From Jannaschia sp. Os4 (lineage in GTDB: Bacteria > Pseudomonadota > Alphaproteobacteria > Rhodobacterales > Rhodobacteraceae), in the NCBI RefSeq assembly GCF_016820245.1, contig NZ_JAFCAR010000005.1:124001-188000 (forward strand): a stretch of 64,000 nt of DNA, in the 5' to 3' direction. The position numbers and the translations under genes were made by a program. This document shows, piece by piece, positions 1-57,485 of this stretch. Numbering within the stretch: the stretch's first letter is position 1; every line of letters begins with the position of its first letter. The notes beneath the pieces are model-generated. The model saw only the letters and a program-made list of their open reading frames with translations. It ran no database searches and was not told the DNA's origin.

Positions 1-1541
1 TGGATTCGCTGGGCTTCGTGCTGGGCTGGCGGGGCCGCGCGGCGCTCGTGCGGTCGGGTGCCGACCGGGGCGAGGTGTCGGCCGAGTTCGACCTGCCGCC
101 CGGCCACCCGGCCCGCACGGTGCTCGACGAGGCGGGGATCGCGGTCGAGGACGACGCGGTCCTGCTGCGCCGGGTCAACACCGCCGACGGGCGCAAGACC
201 GCGTGGATCAACGGCAGCCGCGCCTCCGGCGAGGTGCTGCGCCAGCTCGGGGACGCCCTGCTCGAACTGCACGGCCAGCACGACGATAAGGGCCTGATGG
301 ACATCCGCGGCCACCGCGCGCTGCTCGACGCCTTCGCCGGCGCGGGCCCCGCGCGCGAGGCGGTGGGGGCGGCGTGGCGGGATTTGTCGAAGGCCGCCAA
401 AGCGTTGCGGGCGGCGCGGGCGCAGGTCGAGGCGACCAAGGCCGAGGAGGATTTCCTCCGCCACGCCGTGGCCGAGTTCGACGACCTCGGCCCCGAGGCG
501 GGCGAGGACGAGGCCTTGGACGCCCGCCGCCGCCTCATGCAGGGGGCCGAGCGCATCCGCGAGGACGTCGCCAAGGCCCTGCAGGCGATCGGGCCGAACG
601 GGGCGGAGGCGCAGATGCTCGACGCGACCCGATGGCTGGAGGACGCGGGCGAGGCAGCGGACCAGCTCGCGGGCGCCATCGACGCGCTCGGGCGCGCGAT
701 GACCGAGCTGGGCGAGGCGCAGGCGGGGGTGGAGGCGGTGCTCGACGCGCTGTCCTTCGACCCGCACGAGCTGGAGGCGGTGGAGGAGCGGCTCTTCGCG
801 ATCCGGGCCTTGGCGCGCAAGCACGGCGTGGCGCCGGACGAATTGGGCGCGTTCGGGGACGACCTGCGCGCGCGGCTGGACCTGCTGGACGCGTCGGGGC
901 CGGGGATGCGCGCGCTGGTCGAGGCGGAGGCCGAGGCGCGCAAGGCCTACGACGCGGCGGCGGCCTCGCTGACGACGCTCCGGACCGATGCCGCCGGGCG
1001 GCTGGACGCGGCGATGGCGGCGGAACTGGCACCGCTCAAGATGGAGCGGGCGGTCTTCGTCACCCGCGTGACCGAGGGGTCCGAAGGACCGGAGGGGCGC
1101 GACGACGTGGCCTTCGAGGTGGCGACCAACCCCGGCGCGCCGCCCGGGCCGCTGAACAAGATCGCGTCGGGGGGCGAGCTGTCGCGCTTCCTCTTGGCGC
1201 TGAAGGTCTGCCTGACGGGCGGGGACCGGTCGATGACCCTCATCTTCGACGAGATCGACCGCGGCGTGGGCGGCGCCACCGCCGACGCGGTGGGGCGGCG
1301 GCTCAAGGCGCTGGCCGAGGGGGGGCAGGTGCTGGTCGTCACCCACTCGCCGCAGGTGGCCGCGCTGGGGGCGCATCACTGGCGGGTCGAGAAGCGGGTC
1401 GAGGGCGAGGTCACGACCTCGACGGTGGTGCCGCTGGGCGAGGGCGAGCGGGTGGACGAGATCGCCCGGATGCTGGCCGGGGACACGGTGACGGAGGCCG
1501 CACGGGGCGCGGCGAAGGCGCTCTTGGACGCGGCGGCGTAG
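1..1541 (+). CDS. recN: DNA repair protein RecN (5' end outside window)
   Basis: SMC-like ATPase of recombinational double-strand break repair. The gene is cut by the window edge: the frame is open from base 3, and the first visible residues (DSLGFVLGWRG) are those that follow the Walker A loop in RecN, so Walker A and the true start lie outside. About 512 residues remain. Visible motifs are the family block HGQHD (near base 280), a central Ala/Glu-rich region of coiled-coil type, the ABC signature SGGELSRF (near 1170) and Walker B LIFDEIDRGVGG (near 1245). It converges on the ClC gene. Any SOS-type promoter would be outside the window. Confidence 0.95.
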   Translation, partial: DSLGFVLGWRGRAALVRSGADRGEVSAEFDLPPGHPARTVLDEAGIAVEDDAVLLRRVNTADGRKTAWINGSRASGEVLRQLGDALLELHGQHDDKGLMDIRGHRALLDAFAGAGPAREAVGAAWRDLSKAAKALRAARAQVEATKAEEDFLRHAVAEFDDLGPEAGEDEALDARRRLMQGAERIREDVAKALQAIGPNGAEAQMLDATRWLEDAGEAADQLAGAIDALGRAMTELGEAQAGVEAVLDALSFDPHELEAVEERLFAIRALARKHGVAPDELGAFGDDLRARLDLLDASGPGMRALVEAEAEARKAYDAAAASLTTLRTDAAGRLDAAMAAELAPLKMERAVFVTRVTEGSEGPEGRDDVAFEVATNPGAPPGPLNKIASGGELSRFLLALKVCLTGGDRSMTLIFDEIDRGVGGATADAVGRRLKALAEGGQVLVVTHSPQVAALGAHHWRVEKRVEGEVTTSTVVPLGEGERVDEIARMLAGDTVTEAARGAAKALLDAAA

Positions 1542-1578: not shown

Positions 1579-1603
1579 GCACGGTGGGGGGCGCCCCCCG
1601 TGC
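1579..1603 (+). terminator. GC hairpin after recN
   Basis: A GC-only inverted repeat (G6-CG-C6 core, with GCAC/GTGC outer arms) begins 38 bases after the recN stop. There is no following T-run, so intrinsic termination is uncertain. Its right arm runs into the first unit of the 11-bp repeat cluster, so it could instead belong to that element. Confidence 0.35.
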
Positions 1604-1642
1604 ATATGGCGTGCATACACCGTGCATACATCGTTCATACCG
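1599..1642 (+). repeat. Four 11-bp tandem units, CGTGCAT-type
   Basis: Four direct units start at 1599, 1610, 1621 and 1632, exactly 11 bases apart: CGTGCATATGG / CGTGCATACAC / CGTGCATACAT / CGTTCATACCG. The first seven bases are constant except for one G-to-T change in the last unit. The spacing of about one helical turn puts each copy on the same DNA face, as for an oligomerising DNA-binding protein. A second cluster of the same unit lies upstream of clpP. Confidence 0.85.
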
Positions 1643-1920: not shown

Positions 1921-3603
1921 TCAGGCGTGCTCCTCCGCCGCGCGGGCCGCCAAGGCCCGGTTGAACGCCCGGAAGGCGTCCACGGCGAGCAGGACCGCGA
2001 CGGCGCGGGGAACGTCGTCCTCGATCCGCACGACGGGGACGAACTCGGCCGCGCTCTCGCGCAGGACGGGCAGGGCCGTCGCGAAGGAGGCGTCGGACTC
2101 GATCCAGCGGCCCTCGGCCATGGCCGCGTCGATCCGCTCCCGCGAGGGCGCGCGGGGGTGCGACAGGGCCTTCATGTGCGAGGTCACGCGGATCGTGGCG
2201 GGGATGTAGGCCTGCGGACCCGCGCCGATCTGCTGGCCCCGGCGGAACAGCTGCCGGTCGAAGAAGGACCCGCCCATCAGGCGCGAGCCGACGGCGGTGG
2301 CCATGGAGACGGCGACCATGACGGCGAGGCCGGTCTGCCAGTCGCCCGTCAGCTCGAACACGATCAGCGTGGTGGAGATCGGCGCGCCTAGCACGGCGGC
2401 CGCGACCGCGCCCATGCCGGCCAGGGCGTAGAGCGTCTCCGACCCCGAGACCTCGGGGAAGAGCCCGGTCGCGAGGATCCCGAAGGCGAGGCCGGTCAGC
2501 GCGCCCACCATCAGCGCCGGAGAGAACACGCCCCCGCCCATCCGCCCGCCCACGGTGATCGCGACGGCGGCGACCTTCACGGCGGCGAAGACCATCGCCT
2601 CGCGCAGGCCGATCCCCCCCGACAGTGCGGCGGAGGTGGTCTCGTAGCCCACGCCGATGATGTGCGGGAAGGCGATGGCGATGGCGCCCAGCAGCAGCCC
2701 CGCGACGGCGGGCCGCGCCCATCGCGGCAGGCCGGTGCGGCCTTGGACCGCAGTGCCGATGTCGTCGCAGAAGAACACCGCCCGCATCAGCACGACGGCG
2801 ACGATCCCGCAGAGCAGGCCGAGCAGCAGGAAGGCGGGCAGCTCCACGTAGAAGGCGAGCACGCGCCCCTCGCCGAGCGCGAACTCGGTGACGTCGCCGA
2901 AATGGCTCCGGGAGATGACCGCCCCCGCGACCGCCGAGATGGTGATCGGCGCGAAGGCGTGGACCGAGAAGTGGCGGTTCACCACCTCCATCGCGAAGAG
3001 GGCGCCCGCGATCGGGGCGTTGAAGGAGGCCGCGACCCCCGCCGCGACCGCGCAGCCGAGCAGCTCGCGCCCCGTGATGCCGTCGGCGTTGATGCGGTTC
3101 GACACCCAGCCCGCGATCATCCCGGTGATGTGCACCACCGGCCCTTCCCGGCCCGAGGAGCCGCCGGAGGACAGGGTGATGAGCGACGACAGGGCCGAGG
3201 CGACGCCGGCCTTGCGCTCGACCCGCCCCTCGCGGAGCGCGGCGGCCTCGATCACGTCGGCGACGGAGCGCACGCGCCCGTCCGGGGTGAAGCGGTCGAG
3301 GATCAGGCCCACCACGAGCCCGCCGATGGCGGGGAGCGCGAGCACCCACCACCACGGCAGCGTGGCCGCGAAGCTGTGCAGGAGGCGCGGGTCCTCGGTG
3401 CCGTAGAGCAGGGTCTGGAGCGCCCGGATCGCCGTCATGAACCCCACCGCCGCATAGCCCGAGGCGATGCCCATGAGCAGCGCGATGAACCAGAACTGGG
3501 CGGCGGTCGGGCCGCGCTCCCGCACCACCCGCCACGCGTCGCGCGTCCGCGCGGACAGGCGGGCGAAGGGTCCCTCGGGGGGGTCGGACGGGGCGACGCT
3601 CAT
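1921..3603 (-). CDS. ClC-family voltage-gated chloride channel/antiporter
   Basis: Inner-membrane ClC protein of 560 residues with many hydrophobic segments between about 33 and 430. The selectivity-filter motif is GSSGREGP at residues 148-155, with E153 in the place of the ClC gating glutamate. A second filter-type motif, GGGVFSP, lies further on. A soluble C-terminal stretch of about 110 residues resembles a degenerate CBS region. The start ATG is the one nearest the divergent dehydrogenase gene, 63 bases away. Whether it is a passive channel or a H+/Cl- exchanger cannot be decided from sequence, although most bacterial members are exchangers. Confidence 0.92.
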   Translation of the reverse strand: MSVAPSDPPEGPFARLSARTRDAWRVVRERGPTAAQFWFIALLMGIASGYAAVGFMTAIRALQTLLYGTEDPRLLHSFAATLPWWWVLALPAIGGLVVGLILDRFTPDGRVRSVADVIEAAALREGRVERKAGVASALSSLITLSSGGSSGREGPVVHITGMIAGWVSNRINADGITGRELLGCAVAAGVAASFNAPIAGALFAMEVVNRHFSVHAFAPITISAVAGAVISRSHFGDVTEFALGEGRVLAFYVELPAFLLLGLLCGIVAVVLMRAVFFCDDIGTAVQGRTGLPRWARPAVAGLLLGAIAIAFPHIIGVGYETTSAALSGGIGLREAMVFAAVKVAAVAITVGGRMGGGVFSPALMVGALTGLAFGILATGLFPEVSGSETLYALAGMGAVAAAVLGAPISTTLIVFELTGDWQTGLAVMVAVSMATAVGSRLMGGSFFDRQLFRRGQQIGAGPQAYIPATIRVTSHMKALSHPRAPSRERIDAAMAEGRWIESDASFATALPVLRESAAEFVPVVRIEDDVPRAVAVLLAVDAFRAFNRALAARAAEEHA

Positions 3604-54015: not shown

Positions 54016-55278
54016 TCAGGCGGAGGCCTCGGCCTCCTCCTTGTCGGCGTGGATCAGGAGCGGGGCCGCATCGCGGCGGACGGCCTCCTCGTTCACCACG
54101 ACCTCGTCCACGGTCTCCATGCCCGGCAGCTCGAACATCGTGTCGAGTAGGATGTCCTCCATGATCGAGCGCAGGCCGCGGGCGCCGGTCTTGCGCTCGA
54201 TGGCGCGCTTGGCGATCGACTGCAGCGCGTCGTCGGTGAAGGTCAGCGTCACGCCTTCGAGGTCGAAGAGGCGCTGATACTGCTTCACGAGCGCGTTCTT
54301 CGGCTCGGTCAGGATGGTCACCAGCGCGTCCTGGTCGAGGTCCTCGAGCGTCGCGATGACGGGCAGGCGGCCGACGAACTCGGGGATCAGGCCGAACTTG
54401 AGCAGGTCCTCGGGCTCCAGTTCCTTGAAGGCCTCGCCCACGGTCTTGTCCTCGGGCGCGCGCACGTCGGCGCCGAAGCCCATCGCGGAGCCCTTGCCGC
54501 GCTGCGCGATGATCTTGTCGAGCCCGGCGAAGGCGCCGCCGCAGATGAACAGGATGTTCGTGGTGTCGACCTGCAGGAACTCCTGCTGGGGATGCTTGCG
54601 CCCGCCCTGCGGCGGCACGGAGGCGACGGTGCCCTCCATGATCTTCAGCAGCGCCTGCTGCACCCCCTCGCCCGACACGTCGCGGGTGATGGACGGGTTG
54701 TCCGACTTGCGCGTGATCTTGTCGACCTCGTCGATGTAGACGATGCCGCGCTGCGCCCGCTCGACGTTGTACTCGGAGGCCTGCAGCAGCTTGAGGATGA
54801 TGTTTTCGACGTCCTCGCCGACGTAGCCGGCCTCCGTCAGCGTCGTGGCGTCGGCCATGGTGAACGGCACGTCGAGGATGCGCGCCAGCGTCTGCGCCAG
54901 GAGCGTCTTGCCGCAGCCGGTGGGGCCGATCAGCATGATGTTCGACTTGGCCAGCTCGATGTCCGACTTCGACCCGTGGTCGAGCCGCTTGTAGTGGTTG
55001 TGCACCGCCACCGAGAGCACGCGCTTCGCGTGGGCCTGCCCGATCACGTAGTCGTCGAGCACGGCGCAGATCTCGCGCGGGGTCGGCGTGCCGTCGGCCG
55101 TCTTGAGCCCGGCGGCCTTCGTCTCCTCGCGGATGATGTCCATGCACAGCTCGACGCACTCGTCGCAGATGAACACGGTGGGGCCCGCGATCAGCTTGCG
55201 CACCTCGTGCTGCGACTTCCCGCAGAAGCTGCAGTAGAGCGTGTTCTTGCCGTCGCCGCCGGTGTTGCCTTGGGACAT
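54016..55278 (-). CDS. clpX: ATP-dependent Clp protease ATPase subunit ClpX
   Basis: An AAA+ unfoldase that feeds substrates to ClpP. It has 420 residues: an N-terminal zinc domain with C16, C19, C38 and C41 ([18 protein letters not shown]), an ATPase domain with GPTGCGKT (near 119) and Walker [10 protein letters not shown], and the pore and IGF-type loop regions typical of ClpX. ATG 55278 is the family start; the upstream in-frame extension has no homology. clpP lies 233 bases upstream on the same strand, with a strong hairpin between them. Confidence 0.98.
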
Positions 55279-55451
55279 CTGCCGCCTCCTGTCCGGGCGA
55301 CCCCCACCGGGCCGCCGGTCGCGGGAACCCCCGCGCACTGTCCTGTGTCTGCTCGTTCGTGCCCGAGCCTAGGCCCCAGCGCCGGGGGCCACAAGGGCGG
55401 GAGGGCGCGTTCGCGCCGACGCCCCGAGGCTGTGGCGAACGGACCGCCCTG

Positions 55452-55511: not shown

Positions 55512-56147
55512 TCACTTCGCCTCGTCGTCCTCCGACGCCTTGCCCCGGGACTCGACGATCTCGTCGAGATGGCCCCACTCCTTGGCCTCCTCGGGCGTCA
55601 TCCACTTGTCGCGGTCCAGCGCGGTGCGGACCGTCTCGTAGTCCTGCCCGGTGTGCTTCATGTAGACCTTGTAGATGGCCTCGCGCGTGCGCTCGATGTG
55701 GCGCGCGGAAATCAGGATGTCCTCGGCCATCCCCTGCATCCCGCCCGAGGGCTGGTGGATCATGATCTCCGAGTTGGGCAGCGCGTAGCGCATCCCCTTC
55801 TCGCCGCCGACCGCGATGACCGAGCCCATGGAGGCGGCCATGCCGCAGACGAGGGTCGAGACCTTCGGCTTGATGTACTGCATCGTGTCGTAGATCGACA
55901 TGCCCGCCGTCACCTCGCCGCCGGGCGAGTTGACGTACATCGAGATCTCCTTGTTCGGGTTCTCGGCCTCGAGGTGCAGCAGCTGCGCGACGATGAGCTG
56001 GCTCATGCCCATGTGGACCGGGCCGTTCACGAACACGATCCGCTCCTTCAGGAGGCGCGAAAAGATGTCGTAGGCCCGCTCGCCGCGGGAGGTCTGCTCG
56101 ACCACCATCGGCACGAGGTTCATCTGGATGTCCATCGGATCGCGCAT
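55512..56147 (-). CDS. clpP: ATP-dependent Clp protease proteolytic subunit ClpP
   Basis: A serine protease subunit that forms double heptamer rings with ClpX or ClpA. It has 211 residues with catalytic S106 ([10 protein letters not shown]), H131 ([10 protein letters not shown]) and the following aspartate region. ATG 56147 is chosen: AAGGGA lies eight bases before it, and a longer in-frame start at 56303 would make the 11-bp repeat cluster coding and has no family match. A cluster of 11-bp repeats and a possible heat-shock-type promoter lie upstream. Confidence 0.97.
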
Positions 56148-56232
56148 GTCGTGTGTCCCTTGGTCCGGGGCCGCCCCTGAGGTGGGCGCGGTCCCCTGCG
56201 TCGCCCCCGCCGGGCGCGGCTCGGAGGTGGAA

Positions 56233-56260
56233 CCTAGGGGCGGGGTCGGGGGGGTGCAAG
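56233..56260 (-). promoter_or_regulatory. Possible promoter of clpP
   Basis: On the minus strand, CTTGCA (56260-56255) and CCTAGG (56238-56233) are 16 bases apart, loosely like an alphaproteobacterial RpoH promoter, about 85 bases before the clpP start. The 11-bp repeat cluster begins just upstream of the -35. This is a weak match. Confidence 0.3.
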
Positions 56261-56274
56261 GCGGGGCCGGCGGG

Positions 56275-56329
56275 CGTGCATCCCGCGTGCATCCCGCGTG
56301 CATATCTCGTGCATACGCGCGTATGAACG
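56275..56329 (-). repeat. 11-bp repeat cluster upstream of clpP
   Basis: On the plus strand CGTGCAT starts at 56275, 56286, 56297 and 56308, exactly 11 bases apart: CGTGCATCCCG twice, then CGTGCATATCT and CGTGCATACGC. A fifth, inverted unit, GTATGAACG (56321-56329), is the exact complement of CGTTCATAC, the last unit of the cluster near 1632. The cluster lies 128-182 bases before the clpP start. Confidence 0.85.
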
Positions 56330-56374: not shown

Positions 56375-57394
56375 TCACCGCATCCAGAGCTTCTCGCGCT
56401 TGAGGCGGTTGCGGATCGGCTGCTCGTCGGCCGGCAGGTCGGCGCGGTCGAACAGCGCACGCGCCTTCGCGCCGCGGCCTTGGTAGAGGAACCGCTTGAA
56501 CGGCTCGTGCTCCTTGAGGACCTTCTTGATCCTGTTGGGCGCGGCGGCGGCCTCGACGCGCTCGATCACCCGCTCGGGGGCGGTGGCGTAGAGCAGGGGC
56601 ATCACGCGCCAGTGGTAGCTGTGCGTCCCGTCGAGCCAACCGTCGGCGATCCCGCCGCCGGCGCCGGGGCGGCCGCCGCCGAGCTCGTGCACGACGAGCG
56701 GCAGCGCGATCTGGTCGAGCCACGGCCAGATCGTCTGGCCGGAGAGCGGCCCCGGCGGGCCGTCGGCGGCGAGGCCGTCGGCGGCGCGGGCGTGGAGGCC
56801 CTCGACCATCCCGGCCACCTCCAGCCAGAGCCGCCCGAAGGAGGGGGCGTCGGCCCCGAAGGTCCAGCCCGCGTTGAAGTAGAGGTAGCGGCGCCAGTGC
56901 TCGACCGGCCATGCCGGATCCTGCGACGACGCGAAGTCGAGGCCGCGGGCGGCGTAGAGGCTGCCCCAGATCTCCTCGTGGCCGGGGCCGTAGAGGTCGA
57001 TGGCGGGCCACGTGGCCGAGCGGCGCATGGAGGCCGAGGGGCGGTCGAAGTCGATCTCGAGGTCCGCGAGGTCGTCGAGGATCGCGGTGTCCGTGTCGAG
57101 GAAGAGGAACGGCCCCGCGGGCGCGTGGGCCAGCGCCTCCATCTTGTTCCCCTGCGGGTAGGGCTCGCCGTAGACGGCGGCGGGGAAGGGGCGGATCTCG
57201 GCGCCGAGACGGGCGAGCAGGTCGCGCGCCGCGTCGCCCATGCGCGGGTCGCCGGGCCAGCGCCCGCCGGGCTGCGGCTCCATCACGACGAGCCCGCCGC
57301 CGAAGCGGGGCGAGGCGTGGCGCAGGGTGGCGGCGAGCAGGCAGGCCTCGTGCTCGAGGCGGCCCCTCTGGCCGACGCAGACGATGTTGAACAT
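56375..57394 (-). CDS. Glycosyltransferase-like protein with DxD motif
   Basis: 339 residues, soluble. It begins FNIVCVGQRGRLEHEACLLAATLR, like a nucleotide-sugar-binding fold, and has FLFLDTDTAILDDL (near 97) with a DxD-type motif that would bind a metal and sugar nucleotide. Later parts contain LYFNAGWTFGADAPSFGRLW and GTHSYHWR. The C-terminus is basic. No close family name is certain, and it may be related to unannotated rhodobacterial capsule or surface-glycan enzymes. ATG 57394 is preferred over an upstream in-frame start. It lies between mfd and clpP on the same strand. Confidence 0.75.
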   Translation of the reverse strand: MFNIVCVGQRGRLEHEACLLAATLRHASPRFGGGLVVMEPQPGGRWPGDPRMGDAARDLLARLGAEIRPFPAAVYGEPYPQGNKMEALAHAPAGPFLFLDTDTAILDDLADLEIDFDRPSASMRRSATWPAIDLYGPGHEEIWGSLYAARGLDFASSQDPAWPVEHWRRYLYFNAGWTFGADAPSFGRLWLEVAGMVEGLHARAADGLAADGPPGPLSGQTIWPWLDQIALPLVVHELGGGRPGAGGGIADGWLDGTHSYHWRVMPLLYATAPERVIERVEAAAAPNRIKKVLKEHEPFKRFLYQGRGAKARALFDRADLPADEQPIRNRLKREKLWMR

Positions 57395-57485
57395 TGGGGC
57401 CTCCCGCGCGCGCGTGGGGACGGGGTCGCGCGGCATGATGGCACGGGTGGGGCGGGCCGTGCGATCCGCGGCACGGATTCGGGGG

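Follow-up and report, generated by a model that had tools for sequence, protein, structure and literature searches.

Phased heptamer repeats at clpP of Jannaschia sp. Os4 belong to a dispersed, mostly one-way family of chromosomal arrays with a possible chromosome-level role

Does the repeat cluster in front of clpP serve clpP? The window, that is, the whole stretch of 64,000 nucleotides of Jannaschia sp. Os4 DNA that was analysed, contains two clusters of repeats with an 11-base period, one beside clpP and one beside recN. The initial annotation took them for binding arrays of one specific regulator, acting on clpP and on something at the recN/ClC site. The features concerned are the following.

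3..1541, plus strand: recN, cut by the window start, the gene upstream of the second array (open reading frame and annotation)
1586..1599, no strand: palindrome GGGGGGCGCCCCCC leading into the second array, read from the sequence
1599..1642, plus strand: second array, of the same family, with units CGTGCATATGG, CGTGCATACAC, CGTGCATACAT and CGTTCATACCG
1921..3603, minus strand: ClC-type chloride channel gene, convergent with recN (open reading frame and family match)
54016..55338, minus strand: clpX (open reading frame and family match), start codon uncertain
55512..56147, minus strand: clpP (NF001368, 304 bits; PF00574)
56231..56238, minus strand: -10-like element of clpP, CCTAGGTT, with CATAGGTT in many relatives
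56255..56260, minus strand: -35-like element of clpP, CTTGCA, replaced by CTTGAA in the 19 relatives; the array is 14 bases away
56275..56318, plus strand: four direct 11-base units, CGTGCAT-N4, comprising CGTGCATCCCG twice, CGTGCATATCT and CGTGCATACGC
56319..56329, minus strand: terminal inverted unit, in which 56320-56329 is the reverse complement of CGTTCATACG
56375..57436, minus strand: open reading frame of 353 amino acids upstream of clpP, with 0 Pfam or NCBIfam model matches at the cut-offs used; its stop codon is 45 bases from the array

Re-reading the coordinates confirmed the array at 56275-56329. CGTGCAT starts at 56275, 56286, 56297 and 56308 on the plus strand, in steps of exactly 11 bases, and the inverted CGTTCATACG follows. 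The second array, placed between the convergent genes recN and ClC, is built like the one at clpP and ends with the direct form of its variant unit. The match between the inverted unit and the other cluster also held on re-reading, the first nine bases of CGTTCATACG being identical to its fourth unit (1632-1640). The whole genome contains 19 exact matches to CGTKCAT-N4-CGTKCAT, which we grouped into 11 places, against 0 for the reversed pattern. Since this control was empty and three CGTGCAT at step 11 gave 0 matches in 60 first-order Markov copies of the window, the window arrays are not a product of chance. When up to 3 mismatches were allowed, the genome yielded 54 matches versus 2 for the control, grouped into 26 places. 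Jannaschia sp. Os4 (G000 in the genome-by-genome counts) thus holds about 26 arrays of the family.

The array does lie just upstream of the clpP promoter, as had been proposed, with 14 bases to the -35-like element. However, the minus-strand open reading frame 56375-57436 on its other side has its stop codon 45 bases away, and the array is therefore equally downstream of that gene and upstream of clpP. The promoter-like element, which we take to be of the RpoH-like type, is common in the genus: its regular expression matches 15 of 20 same-genus clpP upstream regions, and the remaining 5 carry CTTGAA and then CATA or CCTA (by eye). The array is present in only 2 of these 20 regions, those of Jannaschia sp. 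Os4 and of G001, where it has the same orientation. G001 is one of the two genomes whose ClpP is most similar to ours (85 percent identical); G011 has a ClpP equally similar, yet no array at clpP. In addition, 80 loci around clpP genes from a collection of named genomes (784 kb, many families), whose closest ClpP records come from Rhodobacteraceae-type bacteria, gave 0 matches to a two-unit pattern. The initial annotation had itself named conservation upstream of clpP in relatives as a test, and by this test the clpP-regulator reading is largely refuted.

Many of the own-genome arrays share one plan: a GC-rich lead, CGTGCACCCCC, CGTRCATACRY units, CGTGCATACGC, and finally a GCGTTCATACG-like unit. 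Many copies carry this last unit in direct orientation, whereas the clpP array and two others (L060, L064) have it inverted. Several arrays of our genome, though not the one at clpP, are preceded by a stretch resembling GGGGGCGCCCCC. The flanks vary among copies, with two loose tail types.

The distribution among relatives depends on how the heptamer is spelled. The own dialect (CGTKCAT, two units) was found in 1 of 20 same-genus genomes, that of Jannaschia sp. Os4 itself. The wider pattern of three YGTDCAY at step 11 matches 7 of the 20, including our own (G000 42 matches, G001 43, G006 83, G015 36, G009 6, G004 3, G013 3; none in the remaining 13), the control being empty in all 20, and 49 of 394 same-family genomes, again including our own, with 3 control matches (our own count of the table). 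When 289 genomes drawn from across the class (4 of the same family) were searched with three units of a slightly narrower heptamer, YGTRCAY, only our genome and G542 matched, the one match among 285 genomes of other families in the class, there as plain tandem tracts. As judged from these patterns and fractions, the array is a patchy family-level trait. Since the YGTDCAY pattern is missing from 345 of the 394 family genomes, the element must be dispensable or have dialects not seen by the pattern. The spacers have dialects as well, of CATACRY type in G000 and CCCC in G001 and G006; G251, G319 and G369 combine TGTGCAT with mixed spacers. In the small genome of G542 (0.8 Mb), tandem TGTGCATAACC tracts lie at C4:51049-51165 and C28:7-68, among the 13 of 18 matches that were listed.

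Simple tandem duplication was rejected as the origin of the arrays, because the heptamers are constant while the spacers vary within arrays; the heptamers, though, were selected by the pattern. In the unselected neighbouring unit the core still exceeds its spacer in information, though only modestly (1.00 vs 0.88 bits in G251, 1.67 vs 1.35 in G319).

The arrays have a direction, which was compared with the local GC skew taken in array orientation, leaving out 500 bp either side of the array. Pooling all genomes (68 of 201 negative) mixes dialects of opposite sign, and the dialects were therefore analysed separately. The skew is positive in 23 of 26 arrays of G000, 32 of 40 of G001, 35 of 40 of G006 and 10 of 13 of G205 (P 0.09 alone), 100 of 119 in sum. 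It is negative in 32 of 32 arrays of G251 and 12 of 13 of G319, in sum 44 of 45. At 3-kb loci, G369 was negative in 10 of 10 and G015 positive in 8 of 9, four of these also belonging to a mixed collection of single loci drawn from other genomes, in which 10 of 42 are negative. Thus, arrays mostly point one way relative to the local GC skew, with opposite sign in the two dialect groups. Polarity was not seen in G311, whose 4 arrays have near-palindromic units (3 of 4 negative). GTGCAC is its own reverse complement, so which orientations are homologous across the dialect groups is uncertain. The coding strand does not explain the polarity, because in a regression with coding-strand bias the intercepts persist (0.052, se 0.0035, and -0.123, se 0.0072); in the positive-skew group, coding bias makes a slight contribution of its own (slope 0.015, se 0.005).

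At the scale of the chromosome the agreement is looser. In G369, which is nearly one contig, 16 of 19 arrays are oriented in accord with the two skew halves (P 0.004). For G319, orientation agrees with the nearest 15-kb skew sample in 26 of 38 (P 0.03). Sampled at 20 stretches of 15 kb along its 4.3-Mb contig, the GC skew of G319 flips sign many times, which suggests that this chromosome has undergone numerous inversions. As orientation matches local skew more closely than it matches the present replichore, the arrays appear to have been carried along by inverted segments, which weakens the case for selection on their present-day direction.

The arrays also keep apart. The smallest inter-array distance was compared with simulations of uniform placement. 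It is 37 kb in G251 (P 0.0001, all 32 places), 20 kb in G319 (P 0.0009), 17 kb in G000 (P 0.03; contigs C1, C3, C4 and C5, 25 of 26 places), 13 kb in G015 (P 0.012; 33 places, placed on an extent equal to the genome size) and 9.6 kb in G006 (all 12 contigs with two or more places; P 0.001-0.002, depending on the extent assumed for three contigs). In G001 it is 10 kb (P 0.01, 11 contigs), a result that may be biased, since contigs of this assembly often end at arrays. The 21 kb of G369 is not significant (P 0.07). In each of the six genomes for which it was computed, the coefficient of variation falls short of the mean of the simulations, significantly so only in G251 (P 0.02). Close pairs (below 10-35 kb, by genome) are therefore rarer than chance, and the support stops short of strict regularity.

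Some sites are shared between species. Between the same flanking genes and in the same orientation, arrays occur at the thiolase-patatin site in G000, G001 and G006, at the ABC binding protein-permease site in G000, G001, G009 and G319, the last from a different genus, and at the Lrp pair site in G000 and G001. G001 and G006 share six sites, the thiolase site included (P 0.00006-0.0008), and G000 and G001 share four (P 0.001-0.007), clpP being included even though its array stands at the very start of the G001 contig; the two sites common to G000 and G006 are not significant (P 0.07-0.15). The expected numbers assume 1500-2500 conserved gaps, which is a guess. Two shared sites (L304/L223 and L276/L342) have opposite orientation. 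As orientation follows local skew, the fact that it is shared counts for little as independent evidence. Of 11 same-genus loci at the ABC site, 3 carry the array, each with a dialect of its own; G005 seems, by eye, to retain a degenerate copy. At the thiolase site an array lies within 220 bp in 2 of 19 species (G000, G015) and farther down in G001 and G006; in 12 of the other 15 species, a patatin-like start follows after no more than about 60 bp (by eye).

Which explanation do these features favour? If the arrays acted on the genes beside them, their placement should tell. Gene calls for the context counts were seeded or trained on the known window genes, and only 3 of 213 arrays lie inside a called gene. 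In six genomes, the 120 array-bearing gaps comprise 71 codirectional, 33 convergent and 16 divergent ones, compared with 111, 19 and 63 of 193 array-free gaps of 80-700 bp at those loci (chi-square P 4e-6); one own-genome array was classed by its protein neighbours, although at this place (L072:2889-2963) a tRNA-Thr gene ends 28 bases ahead of it. Arrays are depleted from divergent, promoter-bearing gaps, which are not empty of them, and enriched between convergent genes, the opposite of operators. It is thus improbable, in our view, that a regulator such as an OmpR/PhoB-type response regulator controls clpP and other genes through the arrays. Such regulators do use 11-base direct repeats, and the array abuts the clpP promoter in our genome, G001 having one there too in the same orientation. 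The 7+4 base unit also has the length of the PHO box unit, PhoP direct repeat units being described as 11 nucleotides long (PMC7866108); PHO boxes, however, are promoter-bound regulatory sites. Against operators speak also the 18 of 20 same-genus clpP upstream regions that lack the array while the promoter element is common, the tie to GC skew, which is not expected of operators, and the neighbours at five annotated sites, which are unrelated: thiolase and patatin, an NMT1-like binding protein and an ABC permease, FAD oxidases, an Lrp/AsnC pair, and an AFG1 ATPase. On the clpP upstream regions and this gene context, a regulator specific for clpP was rejected. What stood of the initial reading is that the two clusters are one family with common variants and a phased build suited to one protein. 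Still less probable is an element acting at the RNA level, as a terminator, mRNA stabiliser or small RNA. The frequent position behind genes and the GC-rich palindrome beside some arrays would suit it, but codirectional flanking genes are faced both ways about equally (53 with both on the plus strand, 57 with both on the minus strand, relative to the array), divergent gaps are occupied too, and a scan of the window with Rfam at gathering scores had no match, so that a known RNA was dropped as a candidate.

The strongest rival of the binding-array reading is a selfish intergenic repeat, REP/BIME-like or MITE-like, with the phased units as transposase end sequences, which we hold to be a real possibility, if well short of an even chance. 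Such a repeat would have settled behind genes since promoters are intolerant, and would have acquired one orientation by replication-linked insertion, for example into one template strand. REPs are described as dispersed, extragenic and frequent between convergent genes (PMC1525189), and the arrays are all of these. Copies are homogeneous within a species, with conserved tails beside the arrays in G006 and G205, and their distribution among genomes is patchy. The G001 assembly seems to break at arrays, 11 of its 43 matches lying within 140 bp of a contig end. The thiolase-patatin site, moreover, is mostly a short spacer where the array is absent. Several findings weigh against it: conservation in G251 and G319 declines beyond roughly 60 bases, orthologous sites keep arrays across species, each in its own dialect, and close pairs are rarer than chance. 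REPs usually exceed 100 copies (PMC2817692) and their units are palindromic, whereas the arrays are direct phased heptamers in tens of copies, mostly in one skew orientation. The units of REPs fold to hairpins; some own-genome arrays have a GGGGGGCGCCCCCC palindrome beside them, but the array units themselves are direct repeats. The RAYT family PF01797 matches 3 of the 20 genus genomes, 2 of them over the cut-off, and none of these is one of the array-rich G000, G001, G006 and G015. A REPIN/RAYT system was rejected on this ground. Should the selfish repeat nevertheless be the right explanation, it would be a repeat family without a REP transposase and with a strong orientation rule that needs explaining.

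We now turn to the reading that we prefer, held tentatively and at slightly less than an even chance: the array would be a dispersed chromosomal element, a polar and helically phased putative binding array with a chromosome-level role. It builds on the dispersion, phasing, placement, skew polarity, few close pairs, shared sites and dialects of the arrays. The conserved core consists of three to five direct YGTRCAY heptamers, spaced by one turn of the helix; in many cases a variant or inverted unit closes the row. We hypothesize that one putative sequence-specific protein binds the units side by side on one helix face and that, once bound, it would form a short head-to-tail filament, from which the direction would arise. 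The element would then act on the chromosome, in replication, segregation or organisation, and not on the adjacent promoter. Consequently, the array at clpP is probably a landing platform for a putative chromosome-level protein and not a clpP switch. No protein that binds the arrays was found in this computational analysis. YefM/Phd-type TGTACA sites were also considered. ATGCACA presumably resembles part of a DnaA box; DnaA boxes were dropped, as GTACAC-type units do not fit.

Known chromosomal and plasmid systems offer partial likenesses. KOPS and other AIMS octamers are described as strand-biased along the chromosome (PMC5993296). The arrays are strand-biased too, with a fit to local skew stronger than to the replichore, but AIMS are thousands of single octamers and the arrays are intergenic, multi-unit and present in tens of copies. 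AIMS are expected to become more abundant and more biased towards the terminus; in an approximate map of G369, few arrays lie near the skew switch at about 1.75 Mb, taken as the terminus. In parC of plasmid R1, 11-bp direct repeats are bound by ParR into a solenoid-shaped complex (PMC9426499). The arrays share with parC the 11-bp direct repeats, which there are bound by one protein; they differ in being many dispersed chromosomal copies, and the annotated neighbours (five sites only) are not parMR. The direct repeats of parC reportedly number ten. In a literature search covering titles and the opening of abstracts, no description of the phased repeat appeared.

A further lead came from phages. 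A scan of viral contigs with a four-unit pattern gave 16 stretches, in 13 of which the open reading frames around the array were listed. In L463, L466 and L470 the phased heptamers lie inside an open reading frame matching DnaD-like helicase loader families, and in L472 inside one matching a replication initiation protein family; these four open reading frames were the ones family-scanned, and in the other listed stretches the array lies in or between open reading frames. In phage lambda, the origin iterons lie inside gene O. By analogy, the phage arrays inside replication genes look like origin iterons, which hints at an iteron-like use. The O-like and DnaD-like replication genes hold the identical phased heptamer pattern, although the phage array is inside a gene and single in each contig stretch read. 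This lead connects the phased heptamer with replication proteins and not with the Rhodobacteraceae arrays, and the likeness may be convergence, as the contigs were chosen by the pattern. It is tempting to go further and propose, as a long shot, that the arrays are directional and iteron-like, spaced to avoid close pairs, and that a putative, perhaps phage-derived, initiator- or helicase-loader-like protein assembles on them with polarity, for example restarting or pacing forks. The specificity of such a protein would drift between species, with the dialects shifting together at old sites.

If the chromosome-level reading is true, a bacterial family possesses a chromosomal element that takes its direction from strand composition, hence probably from replication, and that switches sequence dialect from one species to the next while its sites are conserved. 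It would point to a chromosome-binding protein not known before, to which the array offers a direct way.

Finally, a subset of copies extends beyond the array. Five own-genome loci (L050, L058, L059, L061, L063) and one of G001 (L261) have a longer common tail, with GTTAAC, a GGATCACG-like stretch and GTCAAG, and in some of these long-tail copies GGTTAACG-like stretches lie on the opposite side of the array. GTTAAC motifs also occur beside many arrays of G319 and some of G251.
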